From NCBI GenBank assembly GCA_947627735.1, contig CANQXG010000001.1, positions 16,406-80,405 of the forward strand: a stretch of DNA of 64,000 nt, given 5' to 3'. The notes under the pieces are model-generated. The model was given only the letters and a program-made list of their open reading frames with translations. It had not been told where the DNA came from and ran no database searches. This document shows positions 3,550 to 24,198 of the stretch, piece by piece. Each line of letters opens with the position of its first letter. Position 1 is the first letter of the stretch. Source of the DNA: an uncultured Oscillospiraceae bacterium. Lineage in GTDB: Bacteria > Bacillota > Clostridia > Oscillospirales > Oscillospiraceae. The position numbers and the translations under genes were made by a program.

Positions 3550-3550
3550 C

Positions 3551-6292: not shown

Positions 6293-6360
6293 TTTTCTCC
6301 CCCTGTTTCACTTGATCCCGCGACGCTGCCACCGGGACATCCGGCCATAACATACCGTAA

Positions 6361-9111
6361 TCATTTCAAATCGATAGAGTCAAAATCCACCCGCGGGAAC
6401 ACCTCAAGCGCTCCGCCCCTTGTGGCGTTAAAGATCTTGACCCCGTTCTCTCCGGCGACTTTCGCCATATATTCGTAGCCATTCTGCATAAGACGGGTGC
6501 TGTGATCCTGAAGTCTCTGTCGTCCGGGCGTATGCCGCTGCATCTCGTCGATATCAGTTTCAACAACATGGATCTTTCCGTTTGAACCGGAATAGTCACA
6601 ATCGACGCCCAAAAGGTATATCTCTGTGAATCCCATATACATAGCTATCTCGATCGCCGCATTTGTGACAGTAAACAGGTCATATAATGCGATCGATATA
6701 TCGCCGCATCTCTTCATATGCTTCGTCAGCATTCGATTCCGTGTGTGATTGCCAAAATGGATATGCAGGAATCTCTCTTTGCCCGTTAATTTACTGAGTT
6801 TAAGTCTGGACGAGAGATAGGCTTCTCTTTGCGGGATCTCCCCTTCTGAAACGACCCCCTGCTTCATACTGTTGATGAATCGCTCATGCCCCTTTGCGTC
6901 GATACACGTATAGTACGTCGGCCTCCAATCTGTCTTGTCAAATAACAGAAAAACGCTGTTGGAGGCAAATGTATACTCATTTTTTAGCCGCTCCAGGTCC
7001 TCGACCCTCAAACTCGGCCCCAGTCCGATCACAAAGCATCGCTCGCCGGCATGTCTGCCGCGTGCCTGCCGGATCGCCGTCATTCTGGGGTCCAATCCGC
7101 TCAGATGCAGCCAGCTCAGGACTCTGCATGCGGCGATCTTCAGATGTGTGTCCCATGACGCCCGGAACGAGAAAGGGGGCGGATTGAAAATTTTATATGT
7201 GCGGCTCCATATCCTGGGGAAATGTTTTTTTAACCACTGCGCTTTGGGGGGCGGCGGCGCGACCGACAGCTTGCCCTTTGGGGCGACGAGAGCGGCACTT
7301 CCCGCTGGCAGCGGCTCCAGATGGAGATACCCGCGCCAATAATCTTCTGTTATCAATTCCGTGTACCGGGACCTGTATTCGGCGCTCACTTCACCAAGAC
7401 GCTTGTAGATGAGCCTGCGGACCCTGAAGTAGTGATCGATGGTACGGAACAGTTCAATGTAGCTTTTCTCCGTCACGATCCCGGTGTCATTGGTTTGGTT
7501 ATACTGGATCGCCTGTTTTACCTTATAAAAGTTGATCGGTCTGCAGGACAGCAGCGAAACTGTGACAATACGCCTGGACTTGGTCAGCCACCCGTTTAGG
7601 GTGATCTTCCTCCGTATTTTCCTCCACTTGCTTTCGTTGAATTTGAAACTTGCAAGGAATTGCGGGTAGTTGATCTGTTGGGGCAGCTCGTCAACCTTGA
7701 CCGGTCGATATCCCAGCCCGGACACCTCTTTGTGCAGCTCGATCGGGTCCTGTTCCTTCAGCCAATCCACACCCCGGCAAAAATCTTCAACGCCCCGCAG
7801 CATTTGTTCCACCTCGCCATAGCGGAAGCGGAGCACCGACTGGACAGCTCTGTTCCGGATATACCGGATAAGGCGCTTTTCTCCTATCTCGCTGCCGGTA
7901 TAGTGGATGGCATTGGCGATCAGGGCGTTGCGCATGTCATAGTAGTGATAGGCACCTGGATAGGAGGCGCCAAATGAGTGCCAGACACCTACGCCGTGGA
8001 TAAAAATGACCGGCGCGCCACTTCTCAGGCCATACTCGACGTCGTCCCGGTGGATAAAGATAGGAAGCGGTAAACCAATTCTCCGGACGACCGAAAGCGG
8101 AACACAGCAAAACGTCCATGGGGAATACTGGACCCTCTCCTCGATCTCGTTGCTCAGCAGGTCGTTCAAGCGCGTCAGATCATATTTGTCCTTAACATGG
8201 GTCTGTTTCCCGAAGCCGCCGTTCCAGCAATCCCCTCGTGTGTGCTGTATCTTCATATCTTCCAGGCGCATCGTCGCCCCGCCCACGGAACAATGTCTGT
8301 ATTTGGACTTCAGGCAGCATAGAAATGCGTACGTCCGGGAGAAAATGTCCGGCTCAAAGACGATATCATCATCTGTAAACAGAACGTGGGTGAATTTCGT
8401 CGGTCCATAGTGCAGGATCTCGATCAGCGACCTGGTAAAGCCGCCTGTGCCCCCGACGTTCATATTCTTAAATATGTGAACATGCTCGTTCGACAGTTCA
8501 GATGCGTCCAGCGTGCAGCCGTTGTCGGAAACGAAAACATCCATATTCCCGCATGTCGGAGCACCCGGGTCGTCTATCACTTCCCTGTTGAGAGAATCCA
8601 GGTTTTTCTTAAGGTATTTTTCCCTTTTATATGTGCAGATCGCAATGCCTATCCTGACATCATTCTGTTTGGCCTCAGCCAAAGTCGTATAATAGTTTCC
8701 GCCATATATAAACGTTTCCTTCTTCTTTGCCTGTACCGCAAAATAATACAAGCCGGCGGAACAGTCCATCGGGAAAGAAAGCGATATGTTCTCCCGTTCG
8801 CGCAGATGAAATGATCTTGCTTGGAGCATCTTCGTGCGGACCGTATTATTGATCTTTTCAGCGTGCATCAGTGTTACCGTAAAATCACCGCATGCATCCA
8901 ATTCAACACTCAGATCATCAATACATGTATATTTTTTCCACTTTCCAATAGAAAACGAGCCAAAAAGCGTGTCAAATGTTACCGCGTCGCCTTCGTTCAA
9001 TGTCAGGCGCTGCTCGGTAATATCGTAAGCGTTCTTATTTGAACAGCGAAAGTACAAGTCATTGATCGTGCATGTTTCTATGCGCGGCAATAAAATTTTC
9101 TGCAATATCAT
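6361..9111 (-). CDS. Fusion: GlfT2-like galactofuranosyltransferase/GT2 plus C-terminal DUF115/MptE-like domain
   Basis: N-terminal half has RIGIAICTYKREKYLKKNLDSL...VFVSDNG...NVGGTGGFTRSLIE...FTDDDI; C-terminal part has GERCFVIGLGPSLRVEDLERLKNEYTFASNSVFLLFDKTDWRPTYYTCID typical of DUF115. Confidence 0.8.
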   Translation of the reverse strand: MILQKILLPRIETCTINDLYFRCSNKNAYDITEQRLTLNEGDAVTFDTLFGSFSIGKWKKYTCIDDLSVELDACGDFTVTLMHAEKINNTVRTKMLQARSFHLRERENISLSFPMDCSAGLYYFAVQAKKKETFIYGGNYYTTLAEAKQNDVRIGIAICTYKREKYLKKNLDSLNREVIDDPGAPTCGNMDVFVSDNGCTLDASELSNEHVHIFKNMNVGGTGGFTRSLIEILHYGPTKFTHVLFTDDDIVFEPDIFSRTYAFLCCLKSKYRHCSVGGATMRLEDMKIQHTRGDCWNGGFGKQTHVKDKYDLTRLNDLLSNEIEERVQYSPWTFCCVPLSVVRRIGLPLPIFIHRDDVEYGLRSGAPVIFIHGVGVWHSFGASYPGAYHYYDMRNALIANAIHYTGSEIGEKRLIRYIRNRAVQSVLRFRYGEVEQMLRGVEDFCRGVDWLKEQDPIELHKEVSGLGYRPVKVDELPQQINYPQFLASFKFNESKWRKIRRKITLNGWLTKSRRIVTVSLLSCRPINFYKVKQAIQYNQTNDTGIVTEKSYIELFRTIDHYFRVRRLIYKRLGEVSAEYRSRYTELITEDYWRGYLHLEPLPAGSAALVAPKGKLSVAPPPPKAQWLKKHFPRIWSRTYKIFNPPPFSFRASWDTHLKIAACRVLSWLHLSGLDPRMTAIRQARGRHAGERCFVIGLGPSLRVEDLERLKNEYTFASNSVFLLFDKTDWRPTYYTCIDAKGHERFINSMKQGVVSEGEIPQREAYLSSRLKLSKLTGKERFLHIHFGNHTRNRMLTKHMKRCGDISIALYDLFTVTNAAIEIAMYMGFTEIYLLGVDCDYSGSNGKIHVVETDIDEMQRHTPGRQRLQDHSTRLMQNGYEYMAKVAGENGVKIFNATRGGALEVFPRVDFDSIDLK

Positions 9112-9139
9112 GTTCCGGTGTTTGCTCCTTCTGTCTTTG

Positions 9140-10234
9140 TTATATTCTTCTGCTCAACGCGAGCGCCGATGCTATGACCTCATGCATATCGTAATATCTG
9201 TACTCGCCCAGCCTGCCGCCAAAAAAGATATTGGGCTGATCCATCGCCAAGGCTTTATAGCGTTCATATTTCTGCTGGTTCTTATCATCGTTGATCGGAT
9301 AATACGGCTCACTGCCCGGCGTCCACGTCATTGGATACTCGTGGGAGATGACCGTCCGCGGCTGCGTGCCAAATTCAAAGTGCTTATGCTCGATGATCCG
9401 TGTGAACGGCGTTTCTCTGTCGGTGTAATTCATCACGGCCACGCCCTGATAATTGTCTGTATCCCTTACCTCCGTTTCAAAGCGGAGAGTGCGGTATTCA
9501 AGCGGACCATAGCAATAGTCGAAATAGGAGTCGATCGTGCCGGTGTAGACGGTCGTTTCAGCGATGTTTTCAAACTCCGAACGGTTCTCGTTGTAGTCCG
9601 CGCCAAGGATGACCTCACTGCCGGACAGGAGCTTTTCAAATATCTGCGTATATCCACCGACCGGAATGCCCTGATAGGGGTCATTGAAGTAGTTGTTGTC
9701 ATATGTAAAACGCACCGGCAGCCGGCGGATGATAAATTCCGGCAGCTCGCTGCACGGCCTGCCCCACTGTTTCTCCGTGTAGCCTTTCACCAGCTTTTCA
9801 TATATATCTCTGCCGACCAGCTGTATCGCATGTTCCTCCAAATTCCGGGGCGGCGCCTTCAACTCCTGCCGCTGCGCTTCAATGATCGCCTTCGCCTGCT
9901 GCGGCGTACTGATGTTCCACATCCGGCTGAAGGTGTTCATGTTGAACGGTATGTTGTATAGCTCCCCGTGGTAATTCGCTATCGGAGAGTTGATGAAGTG
10001 GTTGAACTGCGCGAACTGCCGGATATAGTCCCATACCTCTTTATTTGACGTATGGAAAATATGGGCCCCATAGGTGTGGACCTGTATCCCTTCGATCTGT
10101 TCCGTATAGCAGTTGCCGCCGATATGGCTCCGCCGGTCGATGACCAGACAGCGCTTTCCGCGTATTGTGGCCTCATGGGCAAACACGGCGCCGAACAGGC
10201 CCGCTCCCACGATCAAATAATCATATTTTTCCAT
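9140..10234 (-). CDS. glf: UDP-galactopyranose mutase
   Basis: MEKYDYLIVGAGLFGAVFAHEA...GGNCYTEQIEGIQVHTYGAHIFHTSNKEVWDY...YTEKQWG; classic Glf. Start set at MEKYDY to avoid overlap with the upstream gene. Confidence 0.95.
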   Translation of the reverse strand: MEKYDYLIVGAGLFGAVFAHEATIRGKRCLVIDRRSHIGGNCYTEQIEGIQVHTYGAHIFHTSNKEVWDYIRQFAQFNHFINSPIANYHGELYNIPFNMNTFSRMWNISTPQQAKAIIEAQRQELKAPPRNLEEHAIQLVGRDIYEKLVKGYTEKQWGRPCSELPEFIIRRLPVRFTYDNNYFNDPYQGIPVGGYTQIFEKLLSGSEVILGADYNENRSEFENIAETTVYTGTIDSYFDYCYGPLEYRTLRFETEVRDTDNYQGVAVMNYTDRETPFTRIIEHKHFEFGTQPRTVISHEYPMTWTPGSEPYYPINDDKNQQKYERYKALAMDQPNIFFGGRLGEYRYYDMHEVIASALALSRRI

Positions 10235-10250
10235 CGCCCATGTCCACCTA

Positions 10251-11513
10251 TCACTCACTGCAGTTCCGGCAGGACGGATAGTCCTGCAGCTGGTTTGTTC
10301 GCAGATGCCGGATAAAATCAAGATATGTCTTGCTTGTATATATTTCTTCCAAACTCTGTTCTCTCAGGTTGCCCAGTACGATCTCGTTATTGAAGACCAT
10401 GGGGCACGGGATCACATTCAGATCCCAGGTGACATATAGCTTGTTCTCCCGCATGGGGTATGGGTCGATAAAGCACTTTTTGACGCCCTCATTCGGCGCG
10501 GCAAAGTGAAACGCCTGCCCTCGGTTGTGGAGCGTCCTCCGGATCACTCGCACCGAGGGATGATCTTTCAGCCCGCCCTCGAATCGTTCTCTTAATTCCG
10601 TCTGCCTCGCGTAGTCCAGCCCGCGCTGTTCAAAAAACGCCTGCCCAAAGTCCTCGACACCTACCACTATCTCTATCGGTCCGCCCAATGCCTCATTTTT
10701 CTCGATCAGCGTATCGAGGTTTTTGCGCACGAGCTGCAGGCGGTCGGCGCCATGCAGCAATTTATACGTTTCGTCGTCGTACCCGTAGATGCTCACCTGT
10801 ATGCGTTTTATGCCCACGCGAAGGAACTCATCCCAGAAGGCGTCATCCTTTTCATATCCCAGCGTTGAAACCACTATCGGCATGCAGTTCGGCATACACT
10901 GTCTGATCTGGCGAATCTTGTCAAAGAAATCGTCCAGCAGCAGCACCTCGCCCATCCCATCTGTCCACACGACCATTTTTTTGCTCGCCTGAACGCCCAG
11001 CCGGGAGGCCACGAGCCGGATATCTTCCTCGCTCATAACGCCCTTCGGCCTGGTCATCTGCTCCCGGGGACAGAACACGCAGTTATATCCGCAATAGTTC
11101 GTCAGCTCCAGCCCTACTTCAATATAATTTGGCACCTGGCCAAATACCGACTGCTCGATGAAACGCTTGTCCTGCAGGAGCCTGTTTTCTCTATACGCAA
11201 GCTTCTGCAGTTTCCTTTTATTATCTGCCGCTTCCCGGTCGATTTTCGCGACGCAGTCCTTTTGGATTCGTTCAATCCGCTGTAGATCGCCCCTCAAATC
11301 ATCAACAGACTTTTTGATCTTTGCCTGTTCCTGCCTTAAAAGGGCTATATCGTCATGTATGCTTCCCGCCTTGTTTGCAATGGCGCGATCTATCTCTGAC
11401 AACCTGCTGTTGAGCATGTCGATCTCGCGCATAAAGCTCTTTGTCGGCGGCGGGAATACATGCTTTAACAGATCCTTTATCTTGCTGATGAAACTATCGG
11501 GCAATTCCGTCAC
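10251..11513 (-). CDS. Radical SAM/SPASM-type protein with N-terminal coiled coil
   Basis: CGYNCVFCPREQMT (CxxxCxxC), C-terminal cysteines CPMVFNNEIVLGNLREQSLEEIY...CRNCSE; N-terminal ~110 aa heptad-rich. Confidence 0.85.
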   Translation of the reverse strand: MTELPDSFISKIKDLLKHVFPPPTKSFMREIDMLNSRLSEIDRAIANKAGSIHDDIALLRQEQAKIKKSVDDLRGDLQRIERIQKDCVAKIDREAADNKRKLQKLAYRENRLLQDKRFIEQSVFGQVPNYIEVGLELTNYCGYNCVFCPREQMTRPKGVMSEEDIRLVASRLGVQASKKMVVWTDGMGEVLLLDDFFDKIRQIRQCMPNCMPIVVSTLGYEKDDAFWDEFLRVGIKRIQVSIYGYDDETYKLLHGADRLQLVRKNLDTLIEKNEALGGPIEIVVGVEDFGQAFFEQRGLDYARQTELRERFEGGLKDHPSVRVIRRTLHNRGQAFHFAAPNEGVKKCFIDPYPMRENKLYVTWDLNVIPCPMVFNNEIVLGNLREQSLEEIYTSKTYLDFIRHLRTNQLQDYPSCRNCSE

Positions 11514-12256
11514 CCCCTGCCATACTTGTCCGCATACCGCTTCACGTCGTCCTCGCCGAAATACTCACCCAGCTGGACCTCCGTGAAAATCAGCATATCT
11601 GTTTCCGAGATATTGGTGAGCCGGTGCCTGCAGCCTCGGGGGATAAAAATGCTCTGCCCAGGCGCGACCGTATGTACGGACTCGTCCAGCTGTACCCAGC
11701 CTGTCCCGTTGACGATGATCCAGTACTCCTCCCGCCGCTCATGGCTCTGCAGGCTCAGTGCCTGGCCCGGCATGATGTACACCACCTTCGACTGGAACAA
11801 GTCGTTCAGGACCGTGGTCTTGTACCATCCCCAGGGCCGGGCAAATATCTCGTGCTCCAGCTCGGCTTCATCGATGCTGTCGAAATCATAGCCGATCTGG
11901 AACCGCTGGTTTTTCAGCAGCAGCACGTTCAGCCCCCGGCGGGTGATGATATTGCGGAGCCTGCCAGCCTCGTCCAGGACCGGCAGAAACTCGATCCGAG
12001 GCGACTGGAACCGGTCCAATATCCCGGACAGGTCCTCCCCGTCCCGCACATAGGTGAAATCCCTGCATATCACCGACTCGATGGGTTCGTCCATGCCCAC
12101 GCCACGCAGCACGGCCCGCCGGATGTCCCCGTCCGTCAATGTTCCCGCCACGGTCCCGTCCCCGGCCAGTGCCACCAGGAACTTGACGTGGTTTTCATTC
12201 ATATGGTCCAGCGACTGGAACAGGCTCCTATCCGCGCTGATGACGTGTTTTTTCAT
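11510..12256 (-). CDS. CBS-domain pair plus mannose-6-phosphate isomerase-type cupin
   Basis: N-terminal CBS-like repeats (VAGTLTDGDIRRAVLRG; EFLPVLDEAGRLRNIITRRGL) followed by RPWGWYKTTVL...MPGQALSLQSHERREEYWIIVNGTGWVQLD cupin. No nucleotidyltransferase domain. Confidence 0.8.
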   Translation of the reverse strand: MKKHVISADRSLFQSLDHMNENHVKFLVALAGDGTVAGTLTDGDIRRAVLRGVGMDEPIESVICRDFTYVRDGEDLSGILDRFQSPRIEFLPVLDEAGRLRNIITRRGLNVLLLKNQRFQIGYDFDSIDEAELEHEIFARPWGWYKTTVLNDLFQSKVVYIMPGQALSLQSHERREEYWIIVNGTGWVQLDESVHTVAPGQSIFIPRGCRHRLTNISETDMLIFTEVQLGEYFGEDDVKRYADKYGRG

Positions 12257-12275
12257 GTGTTGTTTTGTCCTTTGC

Positions 12276-13167
12276 TTACCAAATCGTTCTTCCGCCGTCC
12301 AGCACCACCGTCGCGCCGGTCATGTAGGAGCTGGCGTCGGAGAGCATATACAGCACCGTCCCCACATACTCGTCCGGTCGGGACATCCGCCCCATGGGGA
12401 TGAGCTGTGATATCTTCTGCACGAACGCCGGGTCCTGGCCGTTCTCCAGGCTGGCCGGGCACAGGGTGTTGACCCGAACGCCCTTCTTCGCCCAGTAGAC
12501 CGCCAGATACTTCGTCAGCCCCATGATGCCGTGTTTCACCACGGAATAGGACACCGGCTTGACGATCTGCTGGTCCTCCGGGACCCCCTCCTTGCGGTAG
12601 ATGCTCTGGTTGGGCGCGATGATACCGTAATCGGAGGAGATGTTGATGATGACGCCCTTTCCCTGCTCCGCCATCACCTGGCCGAACACCTGGGCGCACA
12701 GGAGCGAACCCGTCAGGCCCACGGCGATGTCCTCGTTCCACATCTCCACGGGGAAGTTGTGGAACTGGATAGCCCCCAGGTTCTTGGACCCGCCCTCCAC
12801 CTTTGGGTTGTTGGCGGCGTTGTTGATGAGGCCGTCGATGTGCCCGTACTTTGAAAGCAGCGCGTCCCGGACCTGACACAGGGCGTCCCGGCTGGTGATA
12901 TCCGTCACGAACGTTTCTATGCGCGCGCCGGGATATGCCTTTTCCAGGTCGGCCTTCGTCCGCTCCATGCCGCCCGGGAATATGTCAAGCAGCACGGCCA
13001 CGCCGTCGCCGGACAGGATCGCCTCGGCGTGCTTCTTCCCCAGCAGTCCTCCGCCGCCGGTGACTATAAAGACCTTATCTCTGATCGAAAACAGCCGCTC
13101 CGCCGCGCCGCGGCCGGCTCTCTCTCTCTCTCTCTCTCTCTCTCGTATGGGTCGGATCGTCTTTCAT
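12276..13167 (-). CDS. SDR-family oxidoreductase; 5' end carries a 13-unit GA tract that puts the ATG at 13167 out of frame (predicted phase-OFF)
   Basis: Frame with Rossmann motif DKVFIVTGGGGLLGKKHAEAIL...TSRDALCQVRDALLSKYGHIDGLINNAANNP...YSVVKHG...; open back through the GA tract to a TGA at 13166-13164 with no usual start codon. The ATG at 13167 (RBS-like AGAGGTG) enters the tract in another frame and stops at 13077-13075. Confidence 0.8.
13118..13144. repeat. (CT)13C simple sequence repeat (GA on coding strand), 27 bp
   Basis: Read directly from sequence; lies between start codon and Rossmann fold of the SDR gene. Confidence 0.97.
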
Positions 13168-13257
13168 TTCTGCACCTCTGTTGTATTTCGGCAGCCGGAC
13201 CGGCAGGGCCTTCGGCTGACCTTTATGCTTGTTCGAGGCGCAGAAACGATTCAGCGG

Positions 13258-14352
<1,095 letters not shown>

Positions 14353-14407
14353 TGTTTTTTCTCCTTTTGATCTCAAATGTAATCTTTTGCAGACGTTTTC
14401 TTTTTGC

Positions 14408-15445
14408 CTAAAACGGAAGGTCCACCGATCTGTGTTCCTCCGACGCTTTTTTGGCGGCGCAGGCCATGCGCAGGCTCACGGCGCCCTCCTCCAATGTCAG
14501 CATATCCTGCCGGCGGCTCTTCACCGCCGCGAGGAACGCCTTCATCTCGTCCACGAACATCTGGTTGCGCTGGAAATCCGAAAACTCCTCCCGCGTTACC
14601 TGATCGCCCCGGGCCACCGTCACGCTCGCCCCCAGCAGGTCCGCCTCCGCCCAGCCGTTCTCCCATATCACCCGGCAGCACCGCCGGGGCGGATATTGGA
14701 AGAAGTCCGCGTGAGCGCTCACCGGGAAGGCCCCCAGGGGTCCGTCCATCCAATAGATGGCCTCGCAGTAGTCCTCCACGCTGAGCGCAAGGCAGCTGTT
14801 GGTCCCGCAGAAGGCCGTGACCGCCTTCGGCGCGCCAAATATCCACTGCAGGTAGTCCAGCTCGTGGATCTGCTGGTTCATGATAACGCCGCCGCCCTGG
14901 TCCTTCCGGGCCATGTATGTGTCGGCGTAGTTCTCATAGGTGTGCATGGTGGTCAGCCGCTCGCCGATCTCCGAGCGCACGGATATGATGGGACCAAATT
15001 CCCGGGACCGCACCAGCTCCCGCAGCCGCCGCAGGCAGGGGTGGAACCGGTTCTGGAACCCCACGAACACGATGCGGCCGCCGTCCTTCGCCGCCTGGAT
15101 CAGCTCGTCCACGCCCGCCATGTCATAGGATATGGGCTTTTCCAGGAACACGTCGCAGCCCGCCCGGACGGCCTTCAGGGCACAGGGGATGTGCTGGCTG
15201 GTGATGTTCGTCACATAGGCGACGTCCGGCCTCTGGGCCAGGGCCTCGTCCAGGTCGGAGAAGCTGCGGATGGCAAATGCGTCCTCCAGCCGGACCCCCT
15301 CCCGGATCTGCATCGTGTCGGAGAACGTCCGCTGCAGGCCCCGGACGCGGTAGGCCAGAAACTCCGCCTCATCGCCCAGATACGCCCGCAGATTGCGCAG
15401 ATGCCGCTGGCCGATGCTCCCCAGGCCGATCATCAGTATTTTCAT
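14408..15445 (-). CDS. Gfo/Idh/MocA-family oxidoreductase
   Basis: MKILMIGLGSIGQRHLRNLR...EKPISYDMAGVDELIQAAK. Confidence 0.9.
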   Translation of the reverse strand: MKILMIGLGSIGQRHLRNLRAYLGDEAEFLAYRVRGLQRTFSDTMQIREGVRLEDAFAIRSFSDLDEALAQRPDVAYVTNITSQHIPCALKAVRAGCDVFLEKPISYDMAGVDELIQAAKDGGRIVFVGFQNRFHPCLRRLRELVRSREFGPIISVRSEIGERLTTMHTYENYADTYMARKDQGGGVIMNQQIHELDYLQWIFGAPKAVTAFCGTNSCLALSVEDYCEAIYWMDGPLGAFPVSAHADFFQYPPRRCCRVIWENGWAEADLLGASVTVARGDQVTREEFSDFQRNQMFVDEMKAFLAAVKSRRQDMLTLEEGAVSLRMACAAKKASEEHRSVDLPF

Positions 15446-16206
15446 GGCTGCTCCTTCTCCGCCTCGCACCGGCGCAGATACGCCATGATCTCGTTATCGA
15501 ACAGCGACACCGCCTCCGTCGTTTCCTCAAACTCCCGGATGCTGTCTATGTCGACGGTCTCCGGGACCTCGAATCCGATCATCCTCTCCCCGTGCAGCAG
15601 ATGGTGCTCAACGATGTATTCCGTTCGCAGCACATCCACATACCCGTCCGGGATATACATGGCCGGGAACCCCTGTCGCGGGCCGTTGGCCCGGTCCAGG
15701 GAGATGCCGTTGAACGCCTGATAATAGCCGTCCTCCGAGCGCCAGAACCACTTGAACGGGCACAGGTCCGTTCTGTGGGCCGAGCGCAGGGAATCCGCCG
15801 TGCTGTCGGCGGTCATCTGCCCGATGGCGCTGCGGATCACCGATATCTCCCGCAGCGGCGTGGTGGGCCGCAGATGGACCCAATACTCCGGCAGCACATC
15901 CTCGTGCTCGTCCAGCCAGTGGATGGCGTGGAGCATGAACTCCACATCCGTCGCCATGTTCCCCGCTATCTCCGCCGGGCGCAGGAAGGGCACGTCCGCC
16001 CCGTAGGACCTGGCGATCTGGGCGTACTGCTCCGAGTCGGTGGACACGATGACCCGCCGCACCTCCGGCGTCAGCTTGCCTGCCGCGATGCTGTACGCCA
16101 TGAGCGGGTGTCCCGCCAGGGGCTTGATATTCTTGTTCTTCACGCCCGTGGACCCGGACCGGGCCGGCACGATGGCATAGATCAGGCCCTTTTGGATAGG
16201 CTTCAT
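15442..16206 (-). CDS. Acylneuraminate cytidylyltransferase (NeuA/LegF-like)
   Basis: YAIVPARSGSTGVKNKNIKPLAGHPLMAYSI...VIVSTDSEQYAQIA...PFLRPAEIA. Confidence 0.92.
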   Translation of the reverse strand: MKPIQKGLIYAIVPARSGSTGVKNKNIKPLAGHPLMAYSIAAGKLTPEVRRVIVSTDSEQYAQIARSYGADVPFLRPAEIAGNMATDVEFMLHAIHWLDEHEDVLPEYWVHLRPTTPLREISVIRSAIGQMTADSTADSLRSAHRTDLCPFKWFWRSEDGYYQAFNGISLDRANGPRQGFPAMYIPDGYVDVLRTEYIVEHHLLHGERMIGFEVPETVDIDSIREFEETTEAVSLFDNEIMAYLRRCEAEKEQP

Positions 16207-16694
16207 TTCCCGCTGTCCTCCCGACTGTTCAGAATTTCCCGGCACAGCTGGCGGATCACACCGCAGCCGCCGTCTTTCTCGGATACCCAGCCGCTTATGG
16301 CCAGCACCTCCGGCTCCGCGTCCCGCGGGCAGCCGCAGGCGCCCACCGCCTGCATCGCCGCCAGATCGTTGACGTCGTTGCCGATGAACATCGCCTCCTG
16401 GGGCGAGAAGCCGTTTTCCCCGCAGTAATCCAGGACGGCCTGCCGTTTATCCTCCACGGCGTGGAGAACGCCGATCTTCAGCTTCCGCGCCCGCTGCTCC
16501 ACGATGGGATTGACCTCCGTGGAGATGATAACCTGGCGGATGCCGGCCTCCCGGAGCAGCCGCACGCCCGTGCCGTCACCGCGATGGAAGACGGCCGACT
16601 CCTCGCCCGTCTCCGACACGATGACCCGGTTGTCCGTGAGCACCCCATCACAGTCGTAGATGAGGAGCCTGACCCTGGAAAAGTCCATGCTCAC
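16203..16694 (-). CDS. HAD-family phosphatase, KdsC-like
   Basis: LLIYDCDGVLTDNRVIVSETGEESAVFHRGDGTGVRLLREAGI...MFIGNDVNDLAAM; adjacent to NeuA/NeuB-like genes. Confidence 0.88.
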   Translation of the reverse strand: MSMDFSRVRLLIYDCDGVLTDNRVIVSETGEESAVFHRGDGTGVRLLREAGIRQVIISTEVNPIVEQRARKLKIGVLHAVEDKRQAVLDYCGENGFSPQEAMFIGNDVNDLAAMQAVGACGCPRDAEPEVLAISGWVSEKDGGCGVIRQLCREILNSREDSGK

Positions 16695-17569
16695 CGGCCC
16701 CGATATTTTAGCTTGTCCCGCTGCACCTGCTCGATGGGCAGGATCTCGCTGTCCTTATAGGTCAGCGCCTGCTGCACGTCGTGCAGGTCTTTTACCAGCT
16801 TTCTGAACTCGTCCGGCTCCAGGGAGGCTGCGTGGTCCGTCCCCTTCCAGGTCTTGTCCAGCGTATAGTGGCGCTCTATGACCTCCGCCCCCAGCGTATA
16901 GGCGGCGATATCCACCGCCGTGCCCAGATGGTGGCCGGAGAATCCGATCTTCTTCACCGTGCTGCCGAAGGTCTTTTTAAGCCTCGTCAGCTCCAGCAGG
17001 CACACGTCCCCGTAAGGCACCGGGTACCCGGAGGTGCAGTCGAAGATCACCAGGTCCTTGTTCCGCCCGCTTTTGACGAATAGGTCCACGATCTTCTCCT
17101 CCTCCTCGTGGGTGGTCATACCGAAGGAGAGCTGGACCTCGCCGCCGTAGTTGTCGCACAGCCACTGGAGCATGGCGAAGTTGTTGTTGCTGGCGGAGGG
17201 GATCTTGATGAACTGCGGCTCGATGGCGGCGATCTCCTTGGCGGAGGTCATGTCCCACACAGAGGTGGAATAGACGATACCGAACTGCTCGCACCAGGCC
17301 TTCAGCTGCCGGTGCTGCTCCGCCGTGAACTCCAGGAATTCCCGGTGCTCCCCGTAGGTCTTTCCGTAGGAATTGGCGGGATTGGGATGGGGCGCGTTAT
17401 ACTGCTCCGGGGTCAGCAGCTCCCGGTTGCAGCGCTTCTGAAACTTGATGGCGTCCGCCTTGCAATACAGCGCCGCCGTGGCGATCAGGTCCCGGGCGAT
17501 GGACATCTCGCCCTTGTGATTGCACCCCGCCTCGGCGATGATGAACGGTTTAGTGTAGGTCGTTTTCAT
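16691..17569 (-). CDS. NeuB-family nonulosonate (N-acetylneuraminate-type) synthase lacking the C-terminal SAF domain
   Basis: KPFIIAEAGCNHKGEMSIARDLI...DAIKFQKR...YSTSVWDMTSAKEIA...IKIPSASNNNFAML...GFSGHHLGTAVDIAAYTLGAEVIERHYTLD; ends ~20 aa after the TIM barrel. Confidence 0.9.
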   Translation of the reverse strand: MKTTYTKPFIIAEAGCNHKGEMSIARDLIATAALYCKADAIKFQKRCNRELLTPEQYNAPHPNPANSYGKTYGEHREFLEFTAEQHRQLKAWCEQFGIVYSTSVWDMTSAKEIAAIEPQFIKIPSASNNNFAMLQWLCDNYGGEVQLSFGMTTHEEEEKIVDLFVKSGRNKDLVIFDCTSGYPVPYGDVCLLELTRLKKTFGSTVKKIGFSGHHLGTAVDIAAYTLGAEVIERHYTLDKTWKGTDHAASLEPDEFRKLVKDLHDVQQALTYKDSEILPIEQVQRDKLKYRGR

Positions 17570-17602
17570 TTGATCTATCTTCCTCCGGTCTTATATAACT
17601 TG

Positions 17603-18592
17603 TCATAGGGCATTCTGTTGCGCCCTTCTCATCTCTCCGTCCTGCCATCGGAACCATTCCCGGGCCGGCACGTCAAACAGGGCCGTGGACGCGATCGCCG
17701 TGACACAGTCAAAGCTGACCCCGGCCAGACGGAACATCTCCGCCGGGATAGTCCGGTCAAGGACGACTACCCCCATGCCGGAATAGTCCGCCGCGTCCCG
17801 GGGATGGGGCTTGAGCATCACCGCATATCCCCGCGCTCTCAGCGCCCTCACGATATCCCGGTAGACGGCCAGCTGCTCCTCCTCGGTGTCCATCAGCCCG
17901 TCTTCCACGAATGGCTGTGTCAGCACCAGCGCCGTCTTTCCCTGGACCGGCGGCACCTCCGGCCTGCCGAACACATCCAAAAGGAGCTGTTTGTCCTCCG
18001 GCCTCAACGCGTCGAACAGGGGCTTTCGCGGCACCTCCACCAGCCGCTCCCGGGGCAGCTCCACGCCGTCCAGGTCGTTGACCTCGATCTCCCGGACCAG
18101 CCCGTCCTCCCCGAAGTACAGATACCCGATGTGGAACAGCCGCTTTATCAGCGCCTTCAGGCCCTTCTGAGGCAGCATATGGGCAAAGGGTCCGGTGGTG
18201 AGGATCTTGTAGCTGTCCAGCCCGTCCTCCACGATCCGGTAGGGCAGCCGCCGGTCCTTCATGTAATGGGCCATCCAGGTCCCGTCGTGGAAGATGTTCA
18301 CCTCGTCGTAGTCCTCAAACCGGAATCCCGCCGGGAAGCTTTTCTCGATGGCCGCCGCGCTTTTCCGGTGGTAGAACAGGGCGTGGTCTATCGCATTGGA
18401 AAAGACATACTCCTCCACGCCGCCTATGTACACCGTCCGGCGAAACAGCCCGCTTTCCTCGATCCTGCGGGCCAGCGCCGCCCCCTCCGGGATGTACCCA
18501 GTGATGAGGATATCCGCCTCCTGCCGGTCCACCAGCTGCTTCACGCAGGCGATCAGGGCGTGGTAATAGGTGGAGCATACGTAGAGCTTCAT
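17603..18592 (-). CDS. GT52/sialyltransferase-like glycosyltransferase
   Basis: MKLYVCSTYYHALIACVKQLVDRQEADILITGYIP...VLTQPFVEDGLM...VMLKPHPRDAADYS; adjacent to CMP-nonulosonate genes. Confidence 0.7.
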   Translation of the reverse strand: MKLYVCSTYYHALIACVKQLVDRQEADILITGYIPEGAALARRIEESGLFRRTVYIGGVEEYVFSNAIDHALFYHRKSAAAIEKSFPAGFRFEDYDEVNIFHDGTWMAHYMKDRRLPYRIVEDGLDSYKILTTGPFAHMLPQKGLKALIKRLFHIGYLYFGEDGLVREIEVNDLDGVELPRERLVEVPRKPLFDALRPEDKQLLLDVFGRPEVPPVQGKTALVLTQPFVEDGLMDTEEEQLAVYRDIVRALRARGYAVMLKPHPRDAADYSGMGVVVLDRTIPAEMFRLAGVSFDCVTAIASTALFDVPAREWFRWQDGEMRRAQQNAL

Positions 18593-20121
18593 ATCCCCAG
18601 ATACCTCTCCCAGAACTCCAAACTCGTCAGCTCTCCCAGCTGGGCCTGATACGCCGCCCGCACCTTTTTATAGCCCCGGACGAACGCCCCCATCACCGGC
18701 AGCAGCCGGATCGGGTCCGTCAGGATGCTGGCCAGGCGGCTCTTGCCCGGCTTTTTCATCTCCGCCAGAAGCGCCTCATTCAGCGCCTCGCCGTCTGTTT
18801 CCAGGAAGAGATCCGGCCCACGCAGAAAGTCCCGGTACGCCCGCAGCAAAAAACCTATCGCCCGTGTGTCCCCCAGCAGCACCGCTTTCCCCGCCCCCCG
18901 GATCAGCTTCATCAAACCGGGCCATACGCCCGCGCCGCTGCCGTGGAGTGCACTAGTCACCAGCTCGTTGCGCTTGATGTAATACTCCAGATGGACGCTG
19001 TACTTCTCGTCGAACCGCCGATGCCACACGCCGATGCCGTTCATCAGCAAAAAGGCAGCATCCATCCGCAGGCCGTACTCCACATCGTCTATTTTGATGA
19101 ACAGCGGCAGCGGCAGCCCGATCATATCGACCGCTCCCAGAGGGATACAGCAATACCACCAAGCGTTATACTGCACGCGGCGCTCTCTCTCATTCGCCAA
19201 AAGAGCTGCCGGACCCGTCAGTTCCAGGCCCTGTCCCATCGGCCTTAAGCGGCCCTTTTGAAACAGCGCTCCCGCCTCATACTGCACCGTGGGCGCATCC
19301 TCCAGGAGCATCTGCCCGCCGACGCACAGGGGCCTGTCCGACGGCTTGGCATACCGCAGCAGCTGCACCGTCTTTACCAGCGCCTCCGTTTCAAAGGAGA
19401 TGTCGTCGTCCATGAACAGGACGTGGGTGTATGTGTCCCGCCGGCGATATGCCTCCATGAGGCCCCGGGTAAAACCCCCGCTGCCGCCGCAGTTCCGGTT
19501 GGGGAACAGCTTCACATGGTCATCCTCCGCCAGCGTCAGCGTCCGGCCGTTGTCCACCACGAACAGGTCCAGCGCCTCCCGGATGGGGCAGTTTTCATCC
19601 CCCCACACCGTCTGGCGCAGCTGGGCCAGGTTCCGGGCCACATAGTCCTCCCGGCGGTAGGTGCACATCACTGCCGCCACCTTCACACCATTCACAGGCG
19701 GCAGGTCAGACTCCCATTGGCCCCGGAGAAACCGGACAGTCCCGTCCGCCGCCTGCACCGTCAGGTACAGCATCCCCTCCGCCGGCAGCGGCGCCAGGTC
19801 TATGGCGGGCAGATGAACCTCGCCGGACACGCGCTTTTCAAGCAGCGTCCTCTCCCCGTCCTGCGTGAACAGACGCACCGAGAGCAGGACTTCGCCCTCT
19901 ACCTCCGCCCGGAGGGATACGCCGGTCACATGGGTGTACCGCAGGTACTTGGGATAGAAAAAGCCGTTGAAGTAGCTGTCGAAGGTCACGACGCCTCCCG
20001 CGGGGATTGTCATTCCATCCCGGTCACAGGTGGCTGCGTCGTCTGCGTGGTAGTAGAGCGCGGACCGGTCCGTCCTGTCCGGGCCGGGAAGGATGATGCG
20101 CGACAATACCGTTCCCATCAT
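18589..20121 (-). CDS. GlfT2-like glycosyltransferase
   Basis: KVAAVMCTYRREDYVARNLAQLRQ...LFVVDNG...NCGGSGGFTRGLMEAYRR...FMDDDI; same N-terminal module as 6361-9111. Confidence 0.85.
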   Translation of the reverse strand: MMGTVLSRIILPGPDRTDRSALYYHADDAATCDRDGMTIPAGGVVTFDSYFNGFFYPKYLRYTHVTGVSLRAEVEGEVLLSVRLFTQDGERTLLEKRVSGEVHLPAIDLAPLPAEGMLYLTVQAADGTVRFLRGQWESDLPPVNGVKVAAVMCTYRREDYVARNLAQLRQTVWGDENCPIREALDLFVVDNGRTLTLAEDDHVKLFPNRNCGGSGGFTRGLMEAYRRRDTYTHVLFMDDDISFETEALVKTVQLLRYAKPSDRPLCVGGQMLLEDAPTVQYEAGALFQKGRLRPMGQGLELTGPAALLANERERRVQYNAWWYCCIPLGAVDMIGLPLPLFIKIDDVEYGLRMDAAFLLMNGIGVWHRRFDEKYSVHLEYYIKRNELVTSALHGSGAGVWPGLMKLIRGAGKAVLLGDTRAIGFLLRAYRDFLRGPDLFLETDGEALNEALLAEMKKPGKSRLASILTDPIRLLPVMGAFVRGYKKVRAAYQAQLGELTSLEFWERYLGI

Positions 20122-20930
20122 GTCCTCCCGATAACGCCCTTTACTGCTGCCCGGCGCTTCGTCCCCGGGGGCAGTAGCACGTTCAGCGCCCGGCGCTTGT
20201 AATACGCCCCGCCGGCATAGAAATGCGCCCGGGGCAGCTCCAGTGTCCGCAGCTCATGCCGCCGGTATGTGGCGTACACCCCCAGCAGCCGCTCCGCCAG
20301 GTACCCATCCACCCGGGGTCCCGGGTCCGATACCTCGCCGTCAAAGGCCGCCAGCAGCGGGAACAGCCAGGCGCAGTAGTCCTGAAACACGTCCCGGCCC
20401 ATGATGAAGATGTTGCCGAAGAACTGCACCGTGCCGCCCAGATATGTGTCCAGGGCCGCCGCCATCTCCGGATGCGTCTGGCGGACCAGTTCCTCCGCCA
20501 GGGCCAGGTCTGCGGCCCGATGATGCCGGGCGTAATGGTCCCGCACGGGCACACGCATATCCTCCCCCATGGGTAGGATCATGTCGTATCGCCCGATCAG
20601 CGCCGCAAAGCGGTCATAGCCCAGCGCCTCCAGATCCGGATCCCGCCGGATGATGTAGGGCCGCTTGGCGTCCGTGTCCGGGTAAAGATACCGCCGGTAG
20701 TGGAAAAAGCCGTACCGGTCCGCCCGGACGTTCTTCCAAGCCCAGTATTGGCCGGTGAGTTCGCAGTAGGAGCGGTTTTTATCGGAGATGTTCTCCCCCT
20801 CGTCGTCATGGGCAAAGCCGGGGAACCGCTCTCCCGCCAGCGCCGCGCCCACCTGCAGGGGCCGCAGCAGCGGGTGCGCCGGCACCGCCTGCCGCTCATG
20901 GCAGCAGATGAACAGCTTTATGTCGGACAA
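20118..20930 (-). CDS. DUF4422-domain protein (capsular/EPS glycosyltransferase-like)
   Basis: IKLFICCHERQ...DNISDKNRSYCELTGQYWAWKN...YGFFHYRRYL pattern typical of DUF4422. Confidence 0.85.
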   Translation of the reverse strand: MSDIKLFICCHERQAVPAHPLLRPLQVGAALAGERFPGFAHDDEGENISDKNRSYCELTGQYWAWKNVRADRYGFFHYRRYLYPDTDAKRPYIIRRDPDLEALGYDRFAALIGRYDMILPMGEDMRVPVRDHYARHHRAADLALAEELVRQTHPEMAAALDTYLGGTVQFFGNIFIMGRDVFQDYCAWLFPLLAAFDGEVSDPGPRVDGYLAERLLGVYATYRRHELRTLELPRAHFYAGGAYYKRRALNVLLPPGTKRRAAVKGVIGRT

Positions 20931-20933
20931 TGC

Positions 20934-21749
20934 TCAGCTCTCCCACCCATGCTCCGTCTGCTCCTGCTCTGCTCGTTCTATCATCAGCCGCTCCACAGTC
21001 TGCGCTGTTATCTCAACCCGGGTCTGCTCGTACAGCTTCCTTAGCGTGCGGACACAGGCCTTGCCGGCCCCGAACCCTGTCGCCTTGCTCACCGCCTTGA
21101 TGTGCAGCCGCACGGTCTCCGCCCGCAGCGGCTCCCCGCCCCTGCCCACGAATATCCGCCCGCCGCGGACGCCATTGTGCAGGGCATAGTCCAAAAGCTC
21201 CTCCCGCAGGCTGTCCGGCAGGCGGACAGCGGTGGTCCCGTCCCGCACCGCCTCCACCGTCAGGGCCAGGAAGTCCGCCATCTCCATGTCCGTGCAGGCG
21301 AAGGCCCGCATGGCCAGATAGGCCAGGGGCTTTCCCATCGCCCGCGCCGTCGTCAGCAGGTGCAGGTATTCCTCCCGGGTGAGCGCCGCCGGGGACGGCT
21401 CCTGTTTCCCGATATAGCTGGTGAGCTGATAGCTCTCGTAGCCCCTGTAGCGCAAAAAGGCGTTGCAAGCACTGGTGAGCATGTTCACATGGGCGGCGGA
21501 ATAGGTGTCTGTCAGGCTCTCCACCCAGTTGGCCAGCGTATCCTCCCGGACCCGCTTGTCCGCCGGCAGGGCGTCGTAAAAGGCCAGCAGCGCCCTGCGG
21601 TAGCGGGCGACCGTACTGGGGCTGAGGTCCGCCTTCAGCCGCCCGACAAAGTCCTCGATATCCGACCGCCCCATCTGAAAGCCGGCCTCCGCCGCCGCAC
21701 CGGCGCGGCCCCGCGCCGCACGCTCCCGGACGGGAAATATCTCCCGCAT
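20934..21749 (-). CDS. Catalytically degenerate tyrosine-recombinase-like protein (dead copy 1)
   Basis: N-terminal SAM-like core-binding domain (LSPSTVARYRRALLAFYDAL) and C-terminal recombinase-like fold, but Arg-I region is CTDMEMADF, HxxRH region is VRTLRKLYEQT, and no C-terminal Tyr nucleophile. RBS GGAGGTG upstream of the ATG. Confidence 0.75.
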   Translation of the reverse strand: MREIFPVRERAARGRAGAAAEAGFQMGRSDIEDFVGRLKADLSPSTVARYRRALLAFYDALPADKRVREDTLANWVESLTDTYSAAHVNMLTSACNAFLRYRGYESYQLTSYIGKQEPSPAALTREEYLHLLTTARAMGKPLAYLAMRAFACTDMEMADFLALTVEAVRDGTTAVRLPDSLREELLDYALHNGVRGGRIFVGRGGEPLRAETVRLHIKAVSKATGFGAGKACVRTLRKLYEQTRVEITAQTVERLMIERAEQEQTEHGWES

Positions 21750-21754
21750 CCTTT

Positions 21755-22213
21755 TTACACCTCCCGGTCCGCCAGTTCGTTCATGAGCTGCTCCGCCTCG
21801 CCGGCGGCCATGGCCTCGGCCTCCGCCCGCGCCGCCAGATACAGCCGCTGCAGGGCCTTGGGCCGGCACATGCCCTCGCCCAGGCCCGCCGCCGCGCCCA
21901 GGCCGCGCAGGATCGCGGACACCCGCTGCACGTCCAGAGGCCGGCCGCTGCGGGTGGCAAATACCGGCCCGGACAGGATGTTCTTCCGGGCGGCATAGGC
22001 CAGCAGCTCACTTTTAAGGCCCTCGGGCAGCGGAACATCTCTTACTCGGCCCGCCCGGACGGCCTCCACCGTCAGCACCGGCAGTTCGGACACGGAGATG
22101 CCCGTCAGGGCAAACACCTTCACCAGCAGGTAAGCCGGCTCCCGGCCCAAAACCCTGGCCGTGTCCAGCAGATGGAGATACTCCGCCCGGGTAAGCTCTT
22201 CCGTCCCCGCCAT
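21755..22213 (-). CDS. Catalytically degenerate tyrosine-recombinase-like protein, catalytic-domain-only (dead copy 2)
   Basis: EELTRAEYLHLLDTARVLGREPAYLLVKVFALTGISVSELPVLTVEAV...PKALQRLYLAA; lacks the N-terminal core-binding domain and the catalytic R/H/R/H/Y. Confidence 0.7.
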   Translation of the reverse strand: MAGTEELTRAEYLHLLDTARVLGREPAYLLVKVFALTGISVSELPVLTVEAVRAGRVRDVPLPEGLKSELLAYAARKNILSGPVFATRSGRPLDVQRVSAILRGLGAAAGLGEGMCRPKALQRLYLAARAEAEAMAAGEAEQLMNELADREV

Positions 22214-22217
22214 GGCG

Positions 22218-23033
22218 TCACACGTCCCAGCCGCAGAGGGCCTGTTCCCGTTCAAGCAGCGCGTCCATGGCCTCCTCGTCCCGCAGCTCCGCCAGCGTGT
22301 TTTGATATAGCTTCTGCAGGCTCCGGGGCGTACCCTTGCCGCCCGTCAGACCCGCCGCCAGGCTCACTTCCCGCAGGCACTTGGCAACGCCCGCTTCCTG
22401 GGGCGCCGTGCCGGCCCGGGTGCCAAAGATCATCCCCGTCCGGCCGTGGAAGGCGGCATAGCTCAGCAGTTCCCGGCACAGGCACGGCGGCAGACGGACC
22501 GCCCTGGTCCAGCATATGACCTCCCCCGCGCGCACCGAATCCACGGTGAGAAGGCCCAGGTCCCGCACCGGGATGCCCGTCACGGCGAACAGCTTGATGA
22601 GCAGATAGGACCGCTCCTTCCGCAGCGCTTTCGCCGCGGCCAGCAGGCGGTGATACTCCTCCCGGGTCACGGCGGGCAGGCTCGTCTTGCCCGGCGCATA
22701 CCGCCCGCTCCGCCGGTACTGCTCCGCGCCCATATACTGCAGCCAGCGGTCGCATACGGCGCCGAAGTAGTTCAGCGTGTTGGGGGAATACCCCTCGCCC
22801 GCCAGCTCTTCCAGCCACAGGTCCACGGTCCCCCGGCGGATGCGCTTGTCCTCCGGAAGCCACTCATGGAGCATCCGCAGTGTCCGGTCATACCGCATCG
22901 CGGTGCCCGGCTGGCTCCGCTCGCCCAGCGCGGCGATGAAGCGTCCGATGTCCTCTTCCCCCATCCGGACGCCCTCGTCCTGGACGGGCCGCGCCGCCCG
23001 GCGCGGGGAGGGCTGCCGCGCAAGCTCCTGCAT
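22218..23033 (-). CDS. Catalytically degenerate tyrosine-recombinase-like protein (dead copy 3), first gene after invertible promoter
   Basis: TAMRYDRTLRMLHEWLPEDKRIRRGTVDLWLEELAGEGYSPNTLNYFGAVCDRWLQY...AVTGIPVRDLGLLTVDSV...PRSLQKLYQNT; start MQELARQ with AAAGGAG RBS. Confidence 0.75.
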   Translation of the reverse strand: MQELARQPSPRRAARPVQDEGVRMGEEDIGRFIAALGERSQPGTAMRYDRTLRMLHEWLPEDKRIRRGTVDLWLEELAGEGYSPNTLNYFGAVCDRWLQYMGAEQYRRSGRYAPGKTSLPAVTREEYHRLLAAAKALRKERSYLLIKLFAVTGIPVRDLGLLTVDSVRAGEVICWTRAVRLPPCLCRELLSYAAFHGRTGMIFGTRAGTAPQEAGVAKCLREVSLAAGLTGGKGTPRSLQKLYQNTLAELRDEEAMDALLEREQALCGWDV

Positions 23034-23066: not shown

Positions 23067-23084
23067 CAAAATAAAGCGTCTGTC
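23067..23084 (+). repeat. Left arm of perfect 18-bp inverted repeat (CAAAATAAAGCGTCTGTC)
   Basis: Exact reverse complement found at 23329-23346. Confidence 0.95.
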
Positions 23085-23110
23085 CAAAAATACTGTACAC
23101 AACATTAGAA

Positions 23111-23139
23111 ATAATAACACATTTCTATATCATTGACAA
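23111..23139 (-). promoter_or_regulatory. Sigma-A promoter reading toward the glycan operon
   Basis: Minus strand TTGTCA-N17-TATTAT with extended -10 TG (TGTTATTAT), inside the IR-bounded segment. Confidence 0.8.
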
Positions 23140-23261
23140 GTGGAAAACAGCGCAATAACAGCGCCTGATTGTCTGATTTGGAAAATACGGGCATGAACAC
23201 AGGGCCGTTGACAAAATCGCTTTCAACGGCCCGCTTCAGTGCGCTCTTAAGGCCCGATCTG

Positions 23262-23295
23262 CCGCCCCGCAAGAAGTCTTGCGGGGCGGTTTTTT
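23262..23295 (+). terminator. Rho-independent terminator inside invertible element, opposite to the promoter
   Basis: CCGCCCCGCAAG-AAGT-CTTGCGGGGCGG-TTTTTT. Confidence 0.9.
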
Positions 23296-23328
23296 GCTCT
23301 GATCTCCATGAGATATCTGCTCATGATA

Positions 23329-23346
23329 GACAGACGCTTTATTTTG
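23329..23346 (-). repeat. Right arm of perfect 18-bp inverted repeat (GACAGACGCTTTATTTTG)
   Basis: Exact reverse complement of 23067-23084. Confidence 0.95.
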
Positions 23347-23355
23347 TTTGCATCG

Positions 23356-24198
23356 CTAACTGACCAGCCCCAGCCGGTCCAGGGTCCGGGCGTGCTCCAT
23401 GCCGGTGGTGATGAGGTATATCCGCGTCGTGTTTATGCTGGAGTGGCCCAGCACGTCCGCCAGCTTCACGATGTCCCGGCAGGCCCGGTAGAACACCGTG
23501 GCGAACAGGTGCCGCAGGTTGTGGGGAAACACCTTCCCCGTTTCCACCCCCGCCAGTGTACATACCGCCTTCATCTCCGCCCATATCTGCCGCCGGCTCA
23601 GGCTCTTTCCGCTTCTGGTGAGAAAGATCTCGCCGGAGGCGATTTTGTTTTTCCTGGCGTATTTCAAAAGCTTCCGGCACAGCTTCCCCGGCAGCATGAT
23701 GGTCCGTATTTTCCCCTTCAGGGCGATCTCCGCCCTGCCCATTTGGGCTGCTTCCACCGTTATGTACCGCACTTCCGACACCCGGATGCCGGTGCCGCAG
23801 ATGGTCTCCATGAGCAGGGCCAGACGCGATTTTCCGCCGTCCTTCGCGGCGGCCACCAGCTTTTCATACTCCGCCTTGGTCAGCTCCCGGCCCGGGTCCC
23901 GGAAGGCCCGGCGCTGGAGCCGCAGGGCCTTGACGCGGCAGTCCTCCCAGCCACAGAACTTGAAAAACGCATTCACCGCCGCCAGCTTGGCGTTCACCGT
24001 CGCCGGGGCATATCCCCGGGCCATAAGCTGTTCCTTCCATGCCACCGCCAGGTCCTTAGTGACCTCCCGCCCGTCCAGCCATGCGGCGAACCCGCGGACG
24101 CTCCGCAGATACGCCTCGACGGTGCCCTCCGCCCGCTCGTCACCGCGAAGGTACGTAGCAAATGCCTCAACGCTCCGGATATCCATCTCTCTACTCAT
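23356..24198 (-). CDS. Tyrosine recombinase, catalytically intact (candidate invertase)
   Basis: TGIRVSEVRYITVEA, LKGKIRTIMLP, FPHNLRHLFATVFY, LADVLGHSSINTTRIYL: R, K, HxxR, H and Y present. Start MSREMDIRS preceded by GGAGGG. Confidence 0.92.
   Translation of the reverse strand: MSREMDIRSVEAFATYLRGDERAEGTVEAYLRSVRGFAAWLDGREVTKDLAVAWKEQLMARGYAPATVNAKLAAVNAFFKFCGWEDCRVKALRLQRRAFRDPGRELTKAEYEKLVAAAKDGGKSRLALLMETICGTGIRVSEVRYITVEAAQMGRAEIALKGKIRTIMLPGKLCRKLLKYARKNKIASGEIFLTRSGKSLSRRQIWAEMKAVCTLAGVETGKVFPHNLRHLFATVFYRACRDIVKLADVLGHSSINTTRIYLITTGMEHARTLDRLGLVS

Follow-up and report, generated by a model that had tools for sequence, protein, structure and literature searches.

Inverton-linked tyrosine-recombinase homologues predicted to be catalytically dead in surface operons of gut Clostridia

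Outside Bacteroides, little is settled about how phase-variable loci sense the state they are in and act in concert. In Bacteroides, UpxY and UpxZ are encoded at the head of capsule operons (PMC7315117). The question is raised again by the DNA analysed here, a stretch of 64,000 nucleotides from an uncultured Oscillospiraceae bacterium (hereafter the window), in which three consecutive genes related to tyrosine recombinases, A, B and C, stand between an invertible DNA segment (inverton) and a glycan operon. What proteins of this kind do at the head of such an operon is the subject of this study. An earlier note on this DNA had likened their position to that of UpxY/UpxZ, and the likeness holds, as the genes head a phase-variable polysaccharide operon. 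In both cases the genes open a polysaccharide operon that follows an invertible promoter, and there are several such loci per genome. However, UpxY belongs to the NusG-type antiterminators and is inhibited by UpxZ, whereas the present proteins are recombinase-derived.

The gene order on the minus strand is intact recombinase, inverton, C, B, A and glycan operon. The intact tyrosine recombinase, the probable invertase (23356..24198, minus strand; its open reading frame stays open up to 24474), carries Arg I in GTGIRVSE, the KGK hairpin, HNLRHLF and LGHSSINTTRIY. The first arm of a perfect 18-bp inverted repeat begins 9 bp past its stop codon (recombinase-proximal arm 23329..23346, plus strand), the distal arm (23067..23084, minus strand) lies within the 5' leader of the operon, and the two enclose a 244-bp inverton (23085..23328). 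A repeat of this length was reached in none of 200 shuffled sequences. A predicted promoter inside the inverton, TTGTCA-17-TATTAT with an extended TG (23111..23139, minus strand), has 10 of 12 consensus matches, where shuffles yield 0.3 promoter-like sites, and points at C, so that the window would show the ON orientation. An intrinsic terminator (23261..23290, plus strand), which currently faces the recombinase, was read directly from its 13-bp perfect stem and T run, the terminator scan alone being weak (shuffles yield 0.5). Judging from this anatomy, inversion would turn the terminator towards the operon and shield the latter from recombinase read-through. Gene C (22218..23033, minus strand) and gene A (20934..21749, minus strand) encode core-binding and CAT-like domains and gene B (21755..22213, minus strand) a CAT-like domain only; the likely starts are ATG 23033 (C), ATG 22213 (B, with TTG 22255 as an alternative) and ATG 21749 (A), and the intergenic gaps measure 4-5 bp. 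The downstream operon (796..20930, minus strand), probably a single transcription unit from strand and spacing, encodes DUF4422, GlfT2-like, GT52/polysialyltransferase-like, NeuB-family, cytidylyltransferase, UDP-galactopyranose mutase and YfhO proteins. At 15442-18592 (minus strand) the operon contains a NeuB-family synthase, a CMP-sugar-type cytidylyltransferase, an HAD phosphatase and the GT52/polysialyltransferase-like enzyme. The UDP-galactopyranose mutase and GlfT2-like genes adjoin the NeuB/cytidylyltransferase set, and the predicted product, under control of the invertible promoter, is a glycan containing galactofuranose and a nonulosonic (sialic-like) acid.

The earlier description of A, B and C as three tandem recombinase homologues without catalytic residues gave the right coordinates and motifs, and alignment to the intact neighbour agrees with it. 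Arg I of GTGIRVSE is replaced by E in A (CTDMEMAD), S in B (LTGISVSE) and P in C (VTGIPVRD), as the Arg I variants CTDMEM, GISVSE and GIPVRD had implied. The KGK hairpin carrying the active-site Lys and the LGHSSINTTRIY (LGH) box with the nucleophilic Tyr are absent from all three, and the claim that no C-terminal Tyr is recognisable is upheld both by the alignment and by the one-helix end of the AlphaFold model of A. His II is gone in every copy, whereas Arg II is kept as R in A and has become Q in B and C. The sequence L-[QR]-[KR]-L-Y had been taken for a new replacement motif; by alignment position it is instead the ancestral HNLRHLF (HxxR) box itself in derived form with its His lost, P-H-N-L-R-H-L-F having become V-R-T-L-R-K-L-Y in A, P-K-A-L-Q-R-L-Y in B and P-R-S-L-Q-K-L-Y in C. 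The proteins end 30-40 aa beyond this LY motif, and B is without the N-terminal core-binding domain. Pfam gave sub-threshold integrase matches only, and profile comparison with the intact neighbouring recombinase gave an hhalign probability of 99.9% (E 5e-36). A, B and C are thus tyrosine-recombinase homologues that are catalytically dead as judged by residue content.

In the AlphaFold model of A (pLDDT 89, pTM 0.61) the core-binding and CAT-like domains are kept, and one long helix (233-267) stands where the Tyr-bearing helices normally are. Its neighbours by Foldseek and VIA are XerA and lambda Int (top matches) and the integron integrase; the repressors MrpR/YopR (8a0a, Z 11.1) and SroF (9rd5, Z 11.7) are matched as well, with structural scores not above those of the active integrases. 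MrpR combines a recombinase fold with the loss of recombinase function and acts as a DNA-binding repressor, as shown experimentally (PMC10516654), and SroF of phage phi3T is a dead recombinase-fold DNA-binding repressor according to the titles of its structure entry (9rd5). The dead family has the tyrosine-recombinase fold in common with MrpR/YopR of phage SPbeta and with SroF (VIA Z 10-11.7), and with MrpR also the fold without catalysis, which for the dead family is judged from residues only. In contrast, sequence kinship was not found when MrpR alone was compared (hhalign probability 0.1%), and membership in the MrpR family was rejected on that basis. MrpR keeps Lys and Tyr, whereas the dead family lacks the entire Tyr-bearing C-terminus; MrpR and SroF are phage lysogeny repressors that do not lie beside invertons, whereas the dead family is inverton-linked and tandem or fused. 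Median net charge falls from +22 in the recombinases to +4 in the dead proteins. As MrpR binds DNA at a near-neutral net charge of -2, the lost positive charge does not exclude DNA binding.

The arrangement is repeated within the genome. A second module (C5) consists of a recombinase 92% identical to that of the window, a 733-aa chain of three fused dead units, a fourth unit 95% identical to A, and another glycan operon, while a third locus (C19) combines a recombinase and repeats with a large surface protein and a single dead gene. At locus L014 (7869-10070), a single 733-aa open reading frame comprises three fused dead recombinase units. Further dead genes were found in congeneric genomes (rabbit-gut MAGs, uncultured Oscillospiraceae) and in other genera, so that the clade occurs across the order, with 1 to 4 units per locus; in a search for spread beyond the order among 391 genomes of the class, the window's own genome aside, all matches stop before the dead-specific C-terminus and none was counted.

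In trees with partner recombinases as the only comparison, a sampling that leaves the root untouched, the dead proteins group as a single clade apart from all of these partners (support 100/100). Each of the position classes (A, B, C, X and surface-type) is a clade of its own, giving five conserved positional paralogues. The dN/dS values are about 0.05-0.4, within the range of the active partners, the C-terminus is family-specific and ends in E..x..GW, and the frames are open in nearly all copies. By these sequence measures the dead family is conserved, monophyletic and selected rather than decaying, in accordance with the selection proposed earlier, since the values stay below the relaxed one near 1 and the clade is single. 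That the genes are decaying, functionless recombinase duplicates is suggested by the loss of catalytic residues and by L090, where the recombinase itself is frameshifted; with the purifying dN/dS, the single clade, the conserved motifs and the open frames against it, this explanation is very improbable, and pseudogene decay was rejected on dN/dS, tree and conserved C-terminus. A second explanation starts from the three adjoining tyrosine-recombinase genes and regards them as a recombinase-in-trio (RIT) element, in which three adjacent, overlapping recombinase genes are considered mobile (PMC3414803). RIT elements are found mostly in alpha- and betaproteobacteria and are mobile, whereas the genes of the present family are dead, operonic and present in 1-4 copies; the chance of a RIT element is negligible, and the candidate was rejected as all copies are dead, copy number varies and no transposed unit was seen. 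The dead units appear to derive from the same recombinase family as the neighbouring invertase. The presumed transition from enzyme to regulator may have a living intermediate in a deep branch, L157/L158, which carries R at Arg I.

Linkage to invertons was assessed in loci fetched by the dead gene alone and counted only where the upstream side was uncut by a contig end (n=46). An invertase lies on the operon side in 40 of the 46, 38 being tyrosine recombinases (intact or recently broken) and 2 serine recombinases, and the co-occurrence with invertible promoters and glycan loci that had been set beforehand as a check was thereby observed. Inverted repeats directly follow the invertase stop in 30 of the 38 tyrosine loci and both serine loci. 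The dead gene heads or closes a glycan or surface-protein operon behind invertase and inverton, and these operons encode either glycan synthesis (rfbA-type nucleotidyltransferases, ABC exporters, glycosyltransferases) or large secreted proteins, SLH domains being present in some of the latter. The invertons of L086 and L087, in one genome, are 97% identical over 165 nt when one is inverted; those of L073/L078 and L074/L079 stand in opposite orientations with identities of 92% over 270 nt and 93% over 224 nt, respectively, and the promoter alignment displays ON and OFF examples directly. The homologous invertons are therefore working or recently working invertible promoters; the evidence for switching comes from these homologous loci, a single orientation having been read for the window inverton. 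The repeat alone is not significant in L071, L073 and L078 (9 bp) and has diverged in L079, L086 and L087, all of which were scored via inversion relative to relatives; at L199 and L204 inverted repeats were sought and none was found. Tyrosine invertases with invertible promoters, such as those of Clostridioides difficile and FimB/FimE, share with the present loci the intact recombinase, the repeats, the promoter segment and the switching of orientation, but those systems have active recombinases, and the papers found describe no dedicated dead clade. A literature search without most subscription papers turned up no account of dead recombinases beside invertons.

So tight a linkage would be compatible, too, with direct control of inversion, which is the main rival to a regulatory role. 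Once made from the ON promoter, the dead proteins would join the active neighbour at the repeats in a heteromeric or dominant-negative synapse, so that inversion is slowed, biased or locked. The adjoining invertase in 40 of 46 loci, the origin of the dead units in the same recombinase family and the correlation of invertase and dead-protein distances between loci (Mantel r 0.59, reached in 0 of 2000 permutations, partly reflecting shared species history) all agree with this. Against it, two loci (L149, 8287-10001, and L094, 2598-4385) use a serine invertase that has an inverted repeat of its own (CAAAAGGTACACCTTTTGACA type) and is followed by the dead gene and a surface protein, and a synapse of such an enzyme with a tyrosine-recombinase homologue is not expected. 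L092 and L093 have lost the invertase and both repeat arms, with the old promoter fixed ON, and retain the dead gene at a dN/dS of 0.30. In the model, moreover, the C-terminal part that normally joins protomers is replaced. Action in trans on other invertons is still conceivable; a search of the window's genome for the 18-bp repeat elsewhere as a trans target gave none at <=3 mismatches. In two genomes, dead homologues follow csrA in flagellar clusters (L155, 7352-8450, and L159, 5722-8736; FlgK in both, FliW in L155), where no invertase was found in the region read. Retention with a serine invertase or after invertase loss indicates that the dead protein is more than a subunit of the adjoining recombinase, and the loci without a local invertase (L092, L093, L155, L159), together with the serine loci L149 and L094, favour a regulator. 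Direct modulation of inversion is accordingly a serious contender that we nonetheless consider unlikely. The action on the adjacent invertible element envisaged in the earlier note survives as linkage in 40 of 46 loci, while a role confined to that element is weakened by the six exceptional loci just named. The outline of that interpretation was thus right, but it was wrong to centre on the adjacent element and to see a new motif, so that it is partly supported by the sequence comparisons.

A transcribed leader, GTAAAGYTGGGCTC, is conserved in surface-protein loci and survives repeat loss. The leader GTAAAGCTGGGC is retained in L092/L093 upstream of the surface gene, is found in every surface-type locus aligned from the genus and might serve as an operator or RNA element. 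A single operator motif shared by the glycan and the surface loci was sought and not found, GTAAAGYTGGGCTC being confined to the latter. A conserved transcribed leader, the lost positive charge and the operon position shared with UpxY/UpxZ would suit regulators that do not work through DNA, such as antiterminators or partners of the transcription machinery. Pfam, however, found no NusG-like domain in A, B or C, the fold is of recombinase type and the leader is missing from glycan-type loci, and we regard such a mode of action as improbable.

The reading that we favour, at about an even chance and by analogy with MrpR, is that the dead genes encode recombinase-fold regulators of phase-variable surface operons that are made in the ON state. 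As the genes sit in the operon driven by the inverton promoter, they would be expressed when that promoter is ON. The proteins, keeping a two-domain clamp fold and unable to cleave, would bind operator-like DNA at their own promoter or leader, at other invertons or at sister operons, where they would adjust transcription or bias switching. The ON state would thereby be self-regulating, and one surface locus could affect others; with units in tandem or fused (as many as three per 733-aa chain), one complex might hold several sites. The lost positive charge and the undetectable hhalign kinship to MrpR count against this regulatory reading. More tentatively, and at rather less than even probability, the family may be a dedicated class, recruited once and kept across the order, that reads and controls invertons of either invertase type and coordinates capsule, surface-protein and flagellar expression via cross-talk.

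The inverton-linked dead recombinases of gut Clostridia provide a defined protein set for testing such coordination. Annotation pipelines and inverton surveys that take each 'integrase' near an inverton for a candidate invertase will misinterpret these genes, and in one inverton survey invertases were picked by annotation words (PMC11892184). At L158 (8482-17772), a 3096-aa BspA-type leucine-rich-repeat protein with SLH domains is encoded between the invertase and the dead gene.
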